From Hyphomicrobiales bacterium (GTDB taxonomy: Bacteria; Pseudomonadota; Alphaproteobacteria; Rhizobiales; Beijerinckiaceae), in the NCBI GenBank assembly GCA_027483795.1, contig JAIXTT010000038.1, positions 1-45,064 on the forward strand: a stretch of 45,064 nucleotides of DNA, in the 5' to 3' direction. This document shows positions 30,401 through 36,792 of this stretch, piece by piece (position 1 is the first letter of the stretch; every line of letters begins with the position of its first letter). The translations under genes were made by a program, and so were the position numbers. A model generated the notes under the pieces. It saw only the letters and a list, made by a program, of their open reading frames with translations, ran no database searches and was not told the DNA's origin.

Positions 30401-30475
<75 letters not shown>

Positions 30476-31824: not shown

Positions 31825-34527
31825 TCAGTCGGCGAGGACGCGGTTCGTCGGGAAGACGACCTCGACCATGGTGCCCTGATCGCGCGCGCTGCGGATCTCG
31901 AGCGCGGCGCGATTGGCTTCGACGAGCGCCTTGGTCAACGGCAGCCCGAGCCCGGTGCCGCCGGCGCGCTTGCCCGCGCGGGTCTGCCGGAACGGCTCGA
32001 AGGCGGCTTCGATCTCGGACGGGTCCATCCCGACGCCGGTGTCGCGCACGCGGATGACGACCTCGCCCGCATCCGTGAAGGCGGTCGAGACGATCACCTG
32101 CCCGCCCGGATCGGTGAACTTCACCGCATTCGACAGGAGATTGATCACGATCTGCTTCAGCGAGCGCTCGTCCGCGACGACCATGGGCAGCGTCGGCGCG
32201 AGACCCGAGCGCAGCACGACCTTGCCTCTCTGGGCCTGAGGCTGGAGCAGGTTCACCGCCCCCGCCACCAACGCATTGGGATCGACGGCGCGGAAATCGA
32301 GATCGAACCGCCCCGCCTCGATCTTGGCGAGATCGAGGAGATCGTCGACGAGGCTGAGGACATGCGCGCCCGAGGCATGGATGTCGCGCAGATAATCCTT
32401 GTAGCGCTCGTTGCCGACGGGCCCGAAGCGCTCTTCGATCATGACCTCCGCGAAGCCCATCACCGCCGAAAGCGGCGTCCGCAGCTCGTGCGAGATGGTG
32501 GCGAGGACTTCGGATTTCCGGGCGCTCGCCTTTTCGGCCTTCTGCTTGGAGGCGAGCAGATCCGCTTCCGCCCGCTTCCAGGAGGTCATGTCGCGCAGCA
32601 CGGCGAAGAAGCGCGGATTCGTCCGGCCGCCGATCCGGCCGAAGGTCATGAAGATCGGGATCGTGCCGCCCTTGCTCGCGCGGCCGCCGACCTCGCGCCC
32701 GTCATTGAGCAGGCTCAGCACGCCGTCGGATTTGATCGCCTCGAAATAGTCGCGGGCGGCCCCGTGGCTGTCCGGCGCGATCACGGTCAGGAAGCTCTCG
32801 CCGAGCAGCCGGCTCTCCTCATAGCCGAACAAGGCTTCGGCCGTGCGGTTGGCCGCGGCGATGCGGCCGTCCGCCTCGATCACCAGCACGCCGTCGGTGG
32901 CGACGTCGAGCATGTCCGAGAGCTCGCGGATCTCGCGGTCGCGTTCCGCGATCTCCTTTTCGAGCGCCGCGGTGCGCTCCGGATCGGCGTCGACGGGCCG
33001 GAAGGCCGTGAGCGTCGCGGGCGTTCCGCCCCAGCTCACCCTGTGCAGCCGCACCTGCGCCGGAAATTCGCGTCCGTTCCGTCCCTCGACGCGCACCGCC
33101 CGGCCGCCGTCGGCCTCCGGCGAAGGTCCGCGGAACAAGCGATCGATGCCGCCTTCCGCATGGAAGACGTCGGCGTCGGCATAGCCGAGCATGTCGAGCA
33201 GCGCACGATTCATCAGGATCGGCACTTCGCCGCGGCTCAGCATGATGCCGATGCTCAGCCGGTCGAAGACGTCGAGCGCCTCCTTGAGCAGGTCCGGGCC
33301 CGCGGAGGCGGGCCGCGCTTCCGCGGGCCGCGCCCGCGGAGCCTCGGTCTCGGGTCTTGCCTCCGCCTGCGGCCGCGGGGCGGGCGGGGTTTCGGACCGG
33401 ACCGGGCGGTCGTCGTCCATCACCGCGCCGAGGGCGCGGGCGATTTCGCGGAAGGCGGCCTTTTCCACGGCGGAGAGCGCGCCGCGCCCGCCCCCCTCGG
33501 AGGCCGCGGGTTTCGGCTCCGGCGCGGGGTTCGCCCGCACGGGAGGAACGGTCTTTTCCCGATATGCGGGGGCGGCGGGGGCGGGTCGCTCCGTCCGCGC
33601 GGCGCTCCCGGCGTCGACGACGCCGAAACCGCGGAAACCCGCGAAGACGCCGTCCGGTCCGAAGACGGGAGTGCCGCCGAGCCTGACGGGCCGCCAGCCT
33701 TCGCCGCCCGCCATCCAGAGGGTCTCGGCCGCGTCGAAGGTCTGCCGGCCGTCGAGACCCGCCGCGAAGGCTCCGGCGGGATCACGCAGCAGATCGGCGA
33801 GGTCGCGCAGCCTGCGGCCCTCCGCCCTTGCGGCGGAGGGGTCGAGAATGCGGCGGACGTCGTCGGCGAAGGCCGCGAAGCGTCCCTCCGCATCCGTCCG
33901 CCAGGTGAACCGCAACCGACCTCCGCCCGTGCGATGCGGCGTCCCCGCCGGCGCAGCCTGCGGGACGTCGCGTTCCGCGGGCGCGGGCGTTGCGTCTTCG
34001 AAACGATCCTCGAAGGCTTCGGCCGCGTCGGAGGACGTCTCGGGCGGCTCTTCCGCGGCGGCCCGCCTGATCGCCGCGACGGGCGCGGCCATGGGCGAGG
34101 GAGAGGATGCGAAGATCGGTTCGGGCAGAGCCGCGACGGGACCGACCGGCTCGGGCGACAGCACCGCGAGCGCAGGGCCCTCGGCGAGACGGACCCGGCG
34201 GAAGCCCAAGGTCACGGGTTCGAAGCGCAGCCCGGGCATGCGGATGCGCTCGAGATGGAAGCCGTCGGCGGGGGCGACGGCCCGCAGCAGCTCGGCGAGC
34301 CTCTCGACGGGCAGGCGTCCGTCCAACGGCTTGGGTCCGGGGCCGGACGTGCCGAACAGCGCGAAGCCCGCGGGCGTCGCCCAGATCAGGCGGCGCATGT
34401 CGGCCGACAGAAAGGCCAAGGCTTCGCCGCGCCGCGCGGCGGCGGCGAGGTCGCCCGCATCGTCGAGAAGGGCGCTTCCGGGCTCGAGACGCTCCGGAAG
34501 CGGGTCTTCGGGGCCTTGCGCGCCCAT
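31825..34527 (-). CDS. PAS-domain sensor histidine kinase, PdhS/PleC/DivJ-like
   Basis: Soluble histidine kinase of 900 residues with no membrane segment. The N-terminal half is Pro/Ala-rich with weakly conserved sensory segments. Two PAS domains follow, at about 435-520 (LDVFDRLSIGIMLSRGE) and 555-660 (VIEADGRIAAANRTAEALFG). HisKA has the phosphorylated His680 in SHELRTPLSAVMGFAEVM. The catalytic domain carries NLLSNAVKF, DTGVGMDP and GGTGLGLPL. The FGPVGNERYKDYLRDIHASG segment after the His box is typical of the PdhS/PleC/DivJ group that controls DivK and CtrA in Rhizobiales; that role is inferred. The start is ATG 34527 behind GGGGA; an ATG at 34638 is also in frame. No receiver domain. 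Confidence 0.88.
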   Translation of the reverse strand: MGAQGPEDPLPERLEPGSALLDDAGDLAAAARRGEALAFLSADMRRLIWATPAGFALFGTSGPGPKPLDGRLPVERLAELLRAVAPADGFHLERIRMPGLRFEPVTLGFRRVRLAEGPALAVLSPEPVGPVAALPEPIFASSPSPMAAPVAAIRRAAAEEPPETSSDAAEAFEDRFEDATPAPAERDVPQAAPAGTPHRTGGGRLRFTWRTDAEGRFAAFADDVRRILDPSAARAEGRRLRDLADLLRDPAGAFAAGLDGRQTFDAAETLWMAGGEGWRPVRLGGTPVFGPDGVFAGFRGFGVVDAGSAARTERPAPAAPAYREKTVPPVRANPAPEPKPAASEGGGRGALSAVEKAAFREIARALGAVMDDDRPVRSETPPAPRPQAEARPETEAPRARPAEARPASAGPDLLKEALDVFDRLSIGIMLSRGEVPILMNRALLDMLGYADADVFHAEGGIDRLFRGPSPEADGGRAVRVEGRNGREFPAQVRLHRVSWGGTPATLTAFRPVDADPERTAALEKEIAERDREIRELSDMLDVATDGVLVIEADGRIAAANRTAEALFGYEESRLLGESFLTVIAPDSHGAARDYFEAIKSDGVLSLLNDGREVGGRASKGGTIPIFMTFGRIGGRTNPRFFAVLRDMTSWKRAEADLLASKQKAEKASARKSEVLATISHELRTPLSAVMGFAEVMIEERFGPVGNERYKDYLRDIHASGAHVLSLVDDLLDLAKIEAGRFDLDFRAVDPNALVAGAVNLLQPQAQRGKVVLRSGLAPTLPMVVADERSLKQIVINLLSNAVKFTDPGGQVIVSTAFTDAGEVVIRVRDTGVGMDPSEIEAAFEPFRQTRAGKRAGGTGLGLPLTKALVEANRAALEIRSARDQGTMVEVVFPTNRVLAD

Positions 34528-34636
34528 GTCGTGATCGTCCCCGCGAGCTGCCGTCGACGGCCGCTCATCGGGGTAGCATGCAGGGCGTCGAAGCGTCCAC
34601 GCGACGCCCGTCGGAATCTCTTGATTATGTTTCCCC

Positions 34637-34648
34637 ATCGTTAACGAT
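34637..34648. promoter_or_regulatory. perfect 12-bp palindrome ATCGTTAACGAT
   Basis: A perfect palindrome lies in the 228-base gap between the divergent kinase and phasin genes, just upstream of the phasin -35 box. Its TTAACGAT half differs by one base from the CtrA half-site TTAACCAT. Function unproven. Confidence 0.35.
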
Positions 34649-34662
34649 AACGGCATCCCCGC

Positions 34663-34699
34663 TTGACGTTTGTGCAATGCAGCATTATGTTGCACCGCA
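34663..34699 (+). promoter_or_regulatory. phaP promoter with two PhaR-type operators
   Basis: TTGACG (34663-34668) and TATGTT (34686-34691) are separated by 17 bases, a good sigma-70-type promoter. TGC-AAT-GCA (34673-34681) lies inside the spacer, and TGC-ACC-GCA (34691-34699) overlaps the -10 box and probable start site. TGCN3GCA is the core of the operator bound by the PHA-sensing repressor PhaR in Paracoccus and Rhodobacter. The two centres are 18 bp apart. This implies phasin repression in the absence of PHA granules. Confidence 0.7.
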
Positions 34700-34755
34700 C
34701 AATACAGGGGACGCCCGGCGACGGTCGCCGGATCCGCCGAGACAGGAGCCGCACC

Positions 34756-35199
34756 ATGGCCAAGAACCCGATGAGCTACGAAATCCCGAACGAAATGCGC
34801 GACTTCGCCGAAAAGAGCGTCGATCAGGCCCGCAAGGCCTTCGACGGCTTCCTCGGCGCGGCTTCGAAGGCCGTCTCCGCCGCGGAGACGCAGGCGGCGG
34901 GCGCGCAGGCCAACGGCCGCGACATCGCGCAGAAGACCATCGGCTATGCCGAGCAGAACATCGCCGCCGGCTTCGACTTCGCTCAGAAGATGGTCCGCGC
35001 GAAGGACGTGCAGGAACTGATGCAGATTCAGGCCGAATATCTGAAGTCGCAGATGGCGGCCATGCAGTCGCAGATGCAGGAGGTCGGCTCGGCCGTTCAG
35101 GCGAACGTGCAGAAGGCCGCTTCCGACGCCAAGGCGACGGTCGAGAAGGCCACCGCCGAAGTGCAGAAGGCCGCGGCCGAAGCCGGCCGCCGCAAGTAA
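34756..35199 (+). CDS. phaP: phasin, PHA granule-associated protein
   Basis: Phasin of 147 residues (Phasin_2-type), a small amphipathic helical protein that coats polyhydroxyalkanoate granules. It starts MAKNPMSYEIPNEMRDFAEK and continues through SVDQARKAFDGFLGAASKAV, AQKTIGYAEQNIAAGFDFAQ and a Gln/Met/Ala-rich helix, ending in Ala/Lys-rich sequence (AEVQKAAAEAGRRK). The start at ATG 34756 follows AGGAG; the frame is open upstream through the promoter. The tandem PhaR-like sites upstream suggest PhaR control. The PHA synthase genes are not in this window. A second phasin gene follows after 136 bases. Confidence 0.92.
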   Translation: MAKNPMSYEIPNEMRDFAEKSVDQARKAFDGFLGAASKAVSAAETQAAGAQANGRDIAQKTIGYAEQNIAAGFDFAQKMVRAKDVQELMQIQAEYLKSQMAAMQSQMQEVGSAVQANVQKAASDAKATVEKATAEVQKAAAEAGRRK

Positions 35200-35335
35200 T
35201 CGCTCGACCGCTCGACGGCGCGGATCGCCGCGCCGTCGTCGATCGCGAGTTCTCGACCGCCGCGCCCGCGGCGGCCCGCGTCCCCGGAACGAGACCTCGG
35301 CGACCCGCCCGGGCCGAGGCGAGAGGAGCATCCCG

Positions 35336-36472
35336 ATGATCGACGAGACCAAGACGAAAGCCGCCGCGCCCGGCAAGAAGCCCGCGGCCGCCAAGGCCGC
35401 GAAGCCCGCAAAGAGCGTCGCCGCGCCCGCCGACACGAAGCCCGCCGTCGCGGCCGTGAACGGCAAGACCCCCGACCTCGTGAAGGCCGTCCCGGCCGCG
35501 CCCGCCCGCAACCCGTTGAAGCCCAAGCCCGCGACCCCCGTCGTGCCGCTCGAGCGGGTGCGCCCGGTCGAGAGCAAGGCCGTAGCGACGCCTCCCGCGC
35601 CCCAAGTCGATCCTGTCTCGAAGAATCCCGATCCCGTCTCGAAGAATCCCGAGCCTGTCTCGAAGAATCCCGAGCCCGCCCCGGCGAAGCCCGAACCCGT
35701 CGCGGCGAAGCCGGAGCCCGCGCCCCGGACGGAACCCGTCGCGGTCGCCGTCGAGGCCGCTCCCGTCCTCGCGATCGCTCCGGTCGAACCGGTCGCCGCG
35801 CCCGCGCCCGTAGCGCCCCCGGTCGCGGCCGCACCGCAACCCGTCGTCGCGCCCGCCGCGCCCGCCAAGACGGCGGCTCCGGCCGCGAAGGCCAAGATCC
35901 GCCCCGCCAAGATCAGCCCCGCCAAGATCAGCCCCGCCAAGTCCGCCGCCGCGCCCGCGGCCGAGTCCAAGCCCGCAGCCGAGCCCGCAGCCAAGCCGGC
36001 GTCGAAGCCGGGTTCGGGCGAGATCATCGACATCCCGGCCGCGTTCGAAGCCTTCCGCCGCCCGGCGGAAGCCGTCGGCGAGGAACTCCCGAAGACCTTC
36101 CGGACGCTCGCCTCCACCGGCCTCGACCAGACCCGCGACGCCTATCAACGGATGCGGCTCTCGGCCGAACGCCTCGGCGAAGGCTTCGAGGACGGCGCCA
36201 AGGCGGCGCAGACGGGTCTGCATGAGTTCCAGAACCGCTGGTTCGATGCGGTCCGCAGCCAGACCGATGCGACGCTCGGCTTCATGAAGGCGATGAGCGA
36301 AGCCCGTACGTTGTCCGACGTGATCGAGCTGAACGCCGCCCATGCGCGCCGGCGCTTCGAAGACGCCTCGTCCCGGGCGAAGGATCTGGCCGCGGTCGCG
36401 AACCGGACGCTCGTCCGGACCGGCGAAACGGTCCGCAAGGCCGTGACCGACAGCATCGCGCCGCGCGGTTGA
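35336..36472 (+). CDS. phasin-domain protein with long Lys/Ala/Pro-rich N-terminal tail
   Basis: Protein of 378 residues. The C-terminal part (about 225-378) is a phasin domain, seen in RRPAEAVGEELPKTFRTLAS and FQNRWFDAVRSQTDATLGFM. The first 225 residues are low complexity, rich in Ala, Pro, Lys and Glu. They include three VSKNPEP-type repeats (93-113) and three AKISP-type repeats (186-202). The ends of the tail are strongly basic (AAPGKKPAAAKAAKPAK), resembling the AAKP-type DNA-binding tails of the Pseudomonas granule protein PhaF, although those are C-terminal. A role tethering granules to the nucleoid is inference. A good AGAGGAG precedes the ATG. It follows phaP by 136 bases and may share its promoter. 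Confidence 0.85.
   Translation: MIDETKTKAAAPGKKPAAAKAAKPAKSVAAPADTKPAVAAVNGKTPDLVKAVPAAPARNPLKPKPATPVVPLERVRPVESKAVATPPAPQVDPVSKNPDPVSKNPEPVSKNPEPAPAKPEPVAAKPEPAPRTEPVAVAVEAAPVLAIAPVEPVAAPAPVAPPVAAAPQPVVAPAAPAKTAAPAAKAKIRPAKISPAKISPAKSAAAPAAESKPAAEPAAKPASKPGSGEIIDIPAAFEAFRRPAEAVGEELPKTFRTLASTGLDQTRDAYQRMRLSAERLGEGFEDGAKAAQTGLHEFQNRWFDAVRSQTDATLGFMKAMSEARTLSDVIELNAAHARRRFEDASSRAKDLAAVANRTLVRTGETVRKAVTDSIAPRG
35612..35674 (+). repeat. three tandem 21-bp repeats in the tailed phasin gene
   Basis: CCTGTCTCGAAGAATCCCGAT is followed by two further copies with one or two changes each, encoding PVSKNPD/E three times. The near identity at DNA level, including at silent positions, points to recent slippage expansion. 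Confidence 0.9.
35891..35941 (+). repeat. three tandem 15-bp repeats in the tailed phasin gene
   Basis: GCCAAGATCCGCCCC is followed by two exact copies of GCCAAGATCAGCCCC and a partial fourth unit. It encodes AKIRP-AKISP-AKISP-AK, a basic Lys/Pro repeat. Confidence 0.9.
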
Positions 36473-36474
36473 GC

Positions 36475-36511
36475 GCCCGATGACATCGTCGGGCCGCGCT
36501 TCGGCGCGGCC
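36475..36511 (+). terminator. overlapping hairpins after the second phasin gene
   Basis: GCCCGA-N8-TCGGGC (36475-36494) overlaps the 8-bp stem GGCCGCGC-TTCG-GCGCGGCC (36492-36511), which has a UUCG tetraloop. The two stems share bases 36492-36494, so they cannot both form fully. A further 14-bp palindrome GCCCGCATGCGGGC lies at 36529-36542. No T-run follows. Probably the 3' end of the phasin transcript. Confidence 0.5.
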
Positions 36512-36561
36512 TCCCGCGCCTCGGCCTTGCCCGCATGCGGGCGGACCGGGGCGTTTCGCGC

Positions 36562-36590
36562 TTGAAATCCGTTTCTTGCGGGACTAGGTT
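36562..36590 (+). promoter_or_regulatory. candidate tRNA-His promoter
   Basis: TTGAAA (36562-36567) and TAGGTT (36585-36590) are separated by 17 bases, ending 17 bases before the mature tRNA 5' end, a normal leader length for a tRNA gene. The -10 box is a weak match. Confidence 0.45.
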
Positions 36591-36607
36591 CGCGCCGCTT
36601 CCGAAGG

Positions 36608-36684
36608 GCAGCTGTAGCTCAGTTGGTTAGAGCACCAGATTGTGGATCTGGGGGTCCCCCGTTCGAGCCGGGGCAGCTGTACCA
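36608..36684 (+). tRNA. tRNA-His (anticodon GTG), G1:U72, A73 form
   Basis: Cloverleaf with encoded CCA: acceptor GCAGCTG/CAGCTGT, anticodon stem CCAGA/TCTGG with loop TTGTGGA (anticodon GTG), and T stem CCCCG/CGGGG with loop TTCGAGC. Pair 1:72 is G:U and the discriminator is A73, not the usual C73. In most bacteria tRNA-His carries an extra G-1 opposite C73. This variant matches the alphaproteobacterial clade whose HisRS recognises G1:U72 and the anticodon. The genomic base before G1 is a G but is not expected to be retained. Confidence 0.95.
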
Positions 36685-36792
36685 CTTTTCTCGGATCGTC
36701 CGAGACGATGCGCGTGGCCGCGCGCCCGCATCGCGGGCGGGGGAGGTCGAGACCTCGCCCGCACCCGGATCGGCGTCGCGCGGCCGAGGCGC

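Follow-up and report, generated by a model that had tools for sequence, protein, structure and literature searches.

Why does a phasin carry more than two hundred disordered residues in front of its phasin domain, and could these residues tie the granule to the nucleoid? The question arises from a locus on contig JAIXTT010000038.1 of a Hyphomicrobiales bacterium of the family Beijerinckiaceae (GCA_027483795.1), of which the whole stretch of 45,064 nucleotides, referred to here as the window, was analysed. A sequence-only reading had described the protein as a phasin fused to a PhaF-like basic tail on its N-terminal side, and had proposed an independently evolved granule–nucleoid tether.

The tailed phasin and its locus

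The protein, called here the tailed phasin, is encoded on the forward strand at 35336–36472 by an open reading frame of 378 amino acids with an ATG start and an AGGAG ribosome site upstream. Several frames are long and open in this region, the usual effect of high GC, and an antisense or out-of-frame GC-rich ORF could therefore have been taken for a gene. However, the frame, the start and a short motif are kept in the same-genus orthologues, codon changes fall at third positions, and the phasin domain lies in frame after the head. The ORF is a genuine gene; an artefact was rejected on the conservation of the same-frame orthologues, and we regard it as extremely improbable.

Phasin_2 (PF09361) matched residues 283–368 (E = 1.8e-10, 41.3 bits against a gathering cut-off of 24.9), which places the protein in this family by domain score, whereas TIGR01985 matched residues 250–366 with 56.6 bits, under its equivalog cut-off of 99.7. 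The domain alone (residues 227–378; 36017–36469, forward strand; net charge 0) gave E = 1.6e-11. An AlphaFold2 model, built from the tailed phasin and two same-genus orthologues, predicts helices at 233–247, 253–322 and 326–374, with block pLDDT values of 81–95 across residues 261 to 370. In its helices, the hairpin thus modelled is consistent with the Phasin_2 fold. In a search of solved structures the best match had E = 0.05 and was not meaningful. Residues 1–229 showed no secondary structure in the model, with pLDDT mostly below 50, so that the long low-complexity head noted earlier in front of a C-terminal phasin domain is borne out.

This disordered Ala/Pro/Lys head (residues 1–227; 35336–36016, forward strand) consists of 28% Ala and 22% Pro, with 32 basic and 17 acidic residues, giving a net charge of +15 or +6.6 per 100 residues. 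As the sequence-only reading had it, the head is basic at both ends (+9 over residues 1–92 and +8 over 178–227), and residues 92–178 are about neutral (−2 over 92–150). Its description of the centre as Glu-rich was too strong, because Glu accounts for only 12 of the 227 residues; the centre is formed by near-neutral PVSKNP[D/E] repeats and their decayed copies, encoded by 21-nt units at 35608–35720 on the forward strand (5.4 copies, 84% matches). Further on, 15-nt units at 35891–35941 on the same strand (3.4 copies, 97% matches) encode basic ISPAK repeats, and the head holds tandem repeats of 12 and 9 nt among others.

The plain phasin said to adjoin the tailed one is indeed present 136 nt upstream. 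It occupies 34756–35199 on the forward strand (147 aa), exceeds both the Pfam and the NCBIfam cut-offs (Phasin_2, E = 3.2e-13; TIGR01985, 112.1 bits), and is identical to its counterparts in two same-genus genomes at 122 and 120 of 147 residues. The 136-nt intergenic stretch (35200–35335, forward strand) contains a GC hairpin whose folding is not unusual (z-score −0.53), and no terminator-like match was found on its forward strand. Transcription of the plain phasin probably continues into the tailed gene. A scan of 34500–36750 gave a single promoter-like match (shuffle mean 0.0), a sigma-70-like promoter of the tandem pair at 34663–34691 on the forward strand (TTGACG, 17 nt, TATGTT).

Two sites in this promoter fit NGCN3GC[GA]N3, the PhaR box as defined in Bradyrhizobium in the accessible part of PMC10888616. 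Box 1, TGCAATGCAGCA, lies between the −35 and −10 hexamers (34673–34684), and box 2, TGCACCGCACAA, has the final base of the −10 hexamer as its first (34691–34702). With two predicted boxes, the phasin promoter qualifies as a candidate member of a PhaR regulon, and the PhaR-like sites of the sequence-only reading are retained as predictions. Around the boxes, upstream of the plain phasin, runs a TGC-rich palindrome. The consensus TGCNNCATNATGTTGCA is matched exactly at 34678–34694, where about 0.06 chance matches with up to two mismatches are expected in the window, although this match is circular because the consensus was written from the window's own site. Among 38 promoters of plain or short-headed phasins, the window's own included, 18 match TGCNNCATNATGTTGCA with 0–2 mismatches and the other 20 with 3–6.

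In the remaining surroundings, a long protein, a PAS/histidine kinase by eye, is encoded on the reverse strand at 31825–34527; it includes two Ala/Pro-rich tracts, one with a net charge of +1 and the other of −7. At Rfam gathering scores, the only known RNA elements in the window are two tRNAs (30401–30472 and 36608–36681), the latter just downstream of the tailed phasin; a known RNA element at the tailed-phasin locus was rejected on this result together with the ordinary fold of the intergenic stretch.

In the genome of the window (120 contigs, 2.85 Mb; 91% complete), PhaC_N and PHB_acc_N (PhaR-type) are each represented by a single protein above cut-off, and Phasin_2 by four proteins above cut-off. 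None of these four has a DNA-binding Pfam domain, and hence no PhaH-type phasin is seen in this assembly. PF05597 did not match the tailed phasin up to E = 1, nor any protein of its genome at E = 1e-10.

Distribution and origin of the long head

The C-terminal domain was matched in 36 of 60 genomes, the window's own included, at E = 0.001, and a profile of nine tailed homologues matched tailed or untailed phasins in 366 of 397 genomes of the family at E = 1e-6. We examined 50 loci of the family, one per genome (L072, the same gene as L061, was left out). At least 70 residues precede the phasin domain in 35 of them, from 11 genera, a count that is not a prevalence because the loci had been selected either for giving the best matches or for having long open frames. 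A fusion specific to this one genome is thereby rejected. The heads of the 35 tailed homologues are 82–312 residues long, some of them possibly mis-started since starts were set by an ATG and ribosome-site rule.

For comparison we used 39 untailed loci (8 belonging to the window's family, 31 to other families within the order), in which the longer phasin copy has a head of 3–61 residues. Heads were below 70 residues in all 31 loci examined from the other families, with the loci of the order search taken as the first 23 new ones; there are further matches, some with long open frames. All 35 tailed loci have a phasin ORF on the same strand within 700 nt upstream (some are cut by the locus edge), and in 35 of the 39 untailed loci another phasin ORF lies within about 3 kb on the same strand. 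Tandem phasins are thus common in the order and are not specific to tailed phasins.

On a tree of 144 rows, the head label requires 6 changes, at least 4 of which are forced by starred branches, against a mean of 31.6 for shuffled labels (0 of 500 as low as 6). Seven short-headed rows and all tailed rows except L084 and L085 fall on one side of a branch with an SH-aLRT of 100. These two rows, from genus g28 and with heads of about 100 residues, stand outside the main tailed group, apparently through a separate enlargement of the head. Taken together, the clustering and the short heads of untailed relatives make the long head look like an enlarged short head rather than a reversed fusion. The word fusion was therefore misleading, as a short head is already present in untailed relatives and appears to have been enlarged in the window's family.

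Charge, repeats and a conserved block in the head

In the proposed tether, a PhaF in reverse, the phasin domain would hold the granule and the basic N-terminal head would make non-specific contact with nucleoid DNA, so that granules are shared between daughter cells. The consistency of the charge favours it, since 34 of the 35 tailed homologues have a head with a net positive charge (over all 35, 0 to +13.0 per 100 residues, median +8.5). So do the basic patches at both ends of the head, with their AKP and SPAK words, and the absence of DNA-binding Pfam domains from the four Phasin_2 proteins of the genome. We compared the head with 15 translated PF05597 loci, 8 of which have C-terminal arms longer than 100 residues and are taken here to be PhaF-type; the arms of the other 7 are 18–48 residues long, with net charges of −1 to +15. 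The eight PhaF-type tails carry +17.6 to +20.1 per 100 residues, 0–1 acidic residues and 27–86 AAKP-like words, against 17 acidic residues and 9 such words in the window's head, whose charge density is about one third of theirs; the median of the tailed homologues is less than half. The tail therefore cannot be called PhaF-like in its charge density, acidic content or AAKP words. The tailed phasin lacks the PF05597 domain, the strongly basic AAKP-type repeats and the C-terminal position of the tail; with these differences and its lower charge density it does not belong to the PhaF kind, whereas a PhaF-like way of working is only made less likely by these sequence comparisons. In all 9 genomes with two PF05597 matches, the plain phasin comes first and the longer one next. 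This order is a true resemblance to PhaF-type loci, yet the tandem is general in the present order of bacteria.

Ordinary linkers gave a mixed background for the charge. A rough gene caller, trained on three genes of the window, called 547 ORFs in some 756 kb drawn from the window, its genome and the same-genus genome G002. These ORFs contain ten other Ala/Pro-rich tracts, of which eight are positive and two negative; their mean of about +1 per 100 residues is below that of the tailed set. On the other side, two of the ten, unrelated linkers sampled in the window's genus, score slightly above the head on this measure (+5.6 and +5.3 against +5.0). Both are Ala/Pro/Lys linkers of proteins encoded on the reverse strand (L142:7928–9217 and L138:9830–10648) that are LysM-like by eye, and they warn against reading such linkers as DNA-binding. 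The homologues of genus g5 are near neutral: L012, L068 and L071 have net charges of 0, +11 and +5, or 0, +1.8 and +3.5 per 100. The heads of L012 and L071 have (E)AKPVE repeats and that of L068 related ones, and these heads are the closest to a natural charge-neutral control. Homologues with neutral tails that behave the same had been named beforehand as evidence against a tether, and L012 has such a tail by its sequence. In the proposed comparison of N-terminal tails, the basic character thus held in all but this net-zero homologue, and no common length emerged. Nor do the basic patches have a fixed place, because charge by head quarters differs between homologues. The positive charge of the head is consistent but modest, and by itself it is therefore no evidence of DNA binding. 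With the strongest conservation also falling in a short block and not in the basic stretches, a reversed PhaF-like tether is in our view rather unlikely.

That block, PLKPKPATPVVPLERVRPV, spans residues 60–78 (35513–35569, forward strand), and 17 and 15 of its 19 residues are identical in the two same-genus orthologues. The corresponding identities are 28/55 and 14/42 for the head before the block, 58/144 and 37/111 after it, and 93/151 and 66/132 for the phasin domain. The 19-residue block is thus the best-conserved part of the protein, ahead of the phasin domain and the basic stretches. When whole heads were compared against 1000 composition shuffles, 1 and 3 shuffles were as good for two pairs, and 393 were as good for the pair L007–L008, which is not significant; the conservation argument therefore rests on the block count, the whole-head test being diffuse.

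Three genomes of genus g29 also contain the core TPVVPx[ED]RV, and in two of these (L058 and L060) the head is just 51 and 54 residues long; near-forms occur in two more loci (TAPIVPAERVRP in L083 and TPVVLAERVK in L062). A DNA pattern of the motif gave seven matches in the 397 family genomes, six of them inside these heads; since a reversed control pattern also gave seven, in 6 genomes, it is the location and not the number of the matches that is informative. Codons of the motif differ at third positions between genomes, as in a selected peptide. In g1 and part of g29 at least, these sequence features point to a docking motif displayed by the head. The pattern was not found in the other tailed genera examined, and docking is therefore not the general role of the heads. 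Tailed phasins of genus g20 (L030, L048 and L053) share another head block, KTTALKSAALKAAAAPRP, so that each genus may keep its own short conserved block.

The head may also have grown under little or no constraint, by slippage in GC-rich repeats that lengthened a short head, the granule coat tolerating the result. The tandem repeats inside the head and the spread of lengths, from 3–61 residues in the untailed loci to 82–312 in the tailed ones, would follow from such growth. However, long heads group together on the tree (as related rows would in any case), almost all heads have a charge of the same sign, and one block of the head is better conserved than the phasin domain; we regard this explanation as unlikely.

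The reading we prefer, at about even chances, is that the protein is a granule-coat phasin with a disordered spacer head bearing a docking motif, the second of a pair behind a PhaR-type promoter. The sequence itself shows the phasin domain, the head predicted to be disordered, the pair in tandem, the PhaR-type boxes and, in the genome, homologues of phaC and phaR. PHB accumulation would draw PhaR away from the promoter to the granule, and both phasins would then be made; the release of PhaR by PHB is reported for Sinorhizobium meliloti in the accessible text of PMC12542648. The C-terminal helical hairpin of the tailed phasin would lie on the granule surface and the 227-residue head would reach out into the cytoplasm, where it would act as a weakly basic, hydrated spacer, helping to hold granules apart and offering the motif KPKPATPVVPxERVRP to a putative partner. 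The basic patches may add weak, non-specific contact with DNA, which would not be their main job. Free variation in head length is expected of a spacer. The near-constant positive charge of the heads (34/35), above the mean of the ten background tracts, is unexplained by a plain spacer. A further combination, in our view unlikely, is that a tether of reversed polarity arose by head growth in one alphaproteobacterial family, independently of PhaF, PhaM and PhaH, and that its arm in g1 and part of g29 acquired TPVVPxERVRP as a docking motif for a positioning partner.

Relation to known phasins and granule tethers

The placement and sharing of granules in alphaproteobacteria are only partly known. 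The N-terminal arms found across this family offer a natural series of length and charge for separating tethering, spacing and docking, and the conserved TPVVPxERVRP block is a small, concrete target for a partner search.

Among known systems, the tailed phasin shares its C-terminal phasin domain, tandem arrangement and PhaR-type boxes with the alphaproteobacterial Phasin_2 phasins of the PhaP type (PF09361, TIGR01985); it differs in its disordered head of about 227 residues, against fewer than 70 in the 31 loci examined from other families. PhaF of Pseudomonas is a PF05597 phasin with a C-terminal DNA-binding tail of AAKP type. Like PhaF, the tailed phasin combines a granule-binding helical part with a long Ala/Pro/Lys disordered arm and is encoded after a plain phasin. 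Unlike PhaF, it has the arm at the opposite end, belongs to another Pfam phasin family, and has about one third of the charge density, more acidic residues and few AAKP words.

PhaM of Ralstonia eutropha (Cupriavidus necator), which we set beside the tailed phasin by description only, represents a proposed class of granule–nucleoid linkers (PMC13052382, accessible part). It binds the nucleoid via a PAKKA motif according to the available portion of PMC11352279, and its nucleoid-binding function lies in the C-terminal part according to that of PMC13052382. PhaH of Caulobacter crescentus is likewise an alphaproteobacterial phasin-type protein and is described in the same portion of PMC13052382 as binding DNA by a C-terminal helix-hairpin-helix domain; this Pfam domain is absent from the tailed phasin and from the other three Phasin_2 proteins of its genome. 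In all three PHB-granule tethers named there, the N-terminal end holds the granule and the C-terminal end holds DNA, and a proven N-terminal tether would therefore be new with respect to the systems covered by that text. Among the accessible parts of the open-licence literature, none that we saw describes an alphaproteobacterial phasin with a long N-terminal head. The tailed phasin represents a lineage of phasins with long heads and a short motif that is new.
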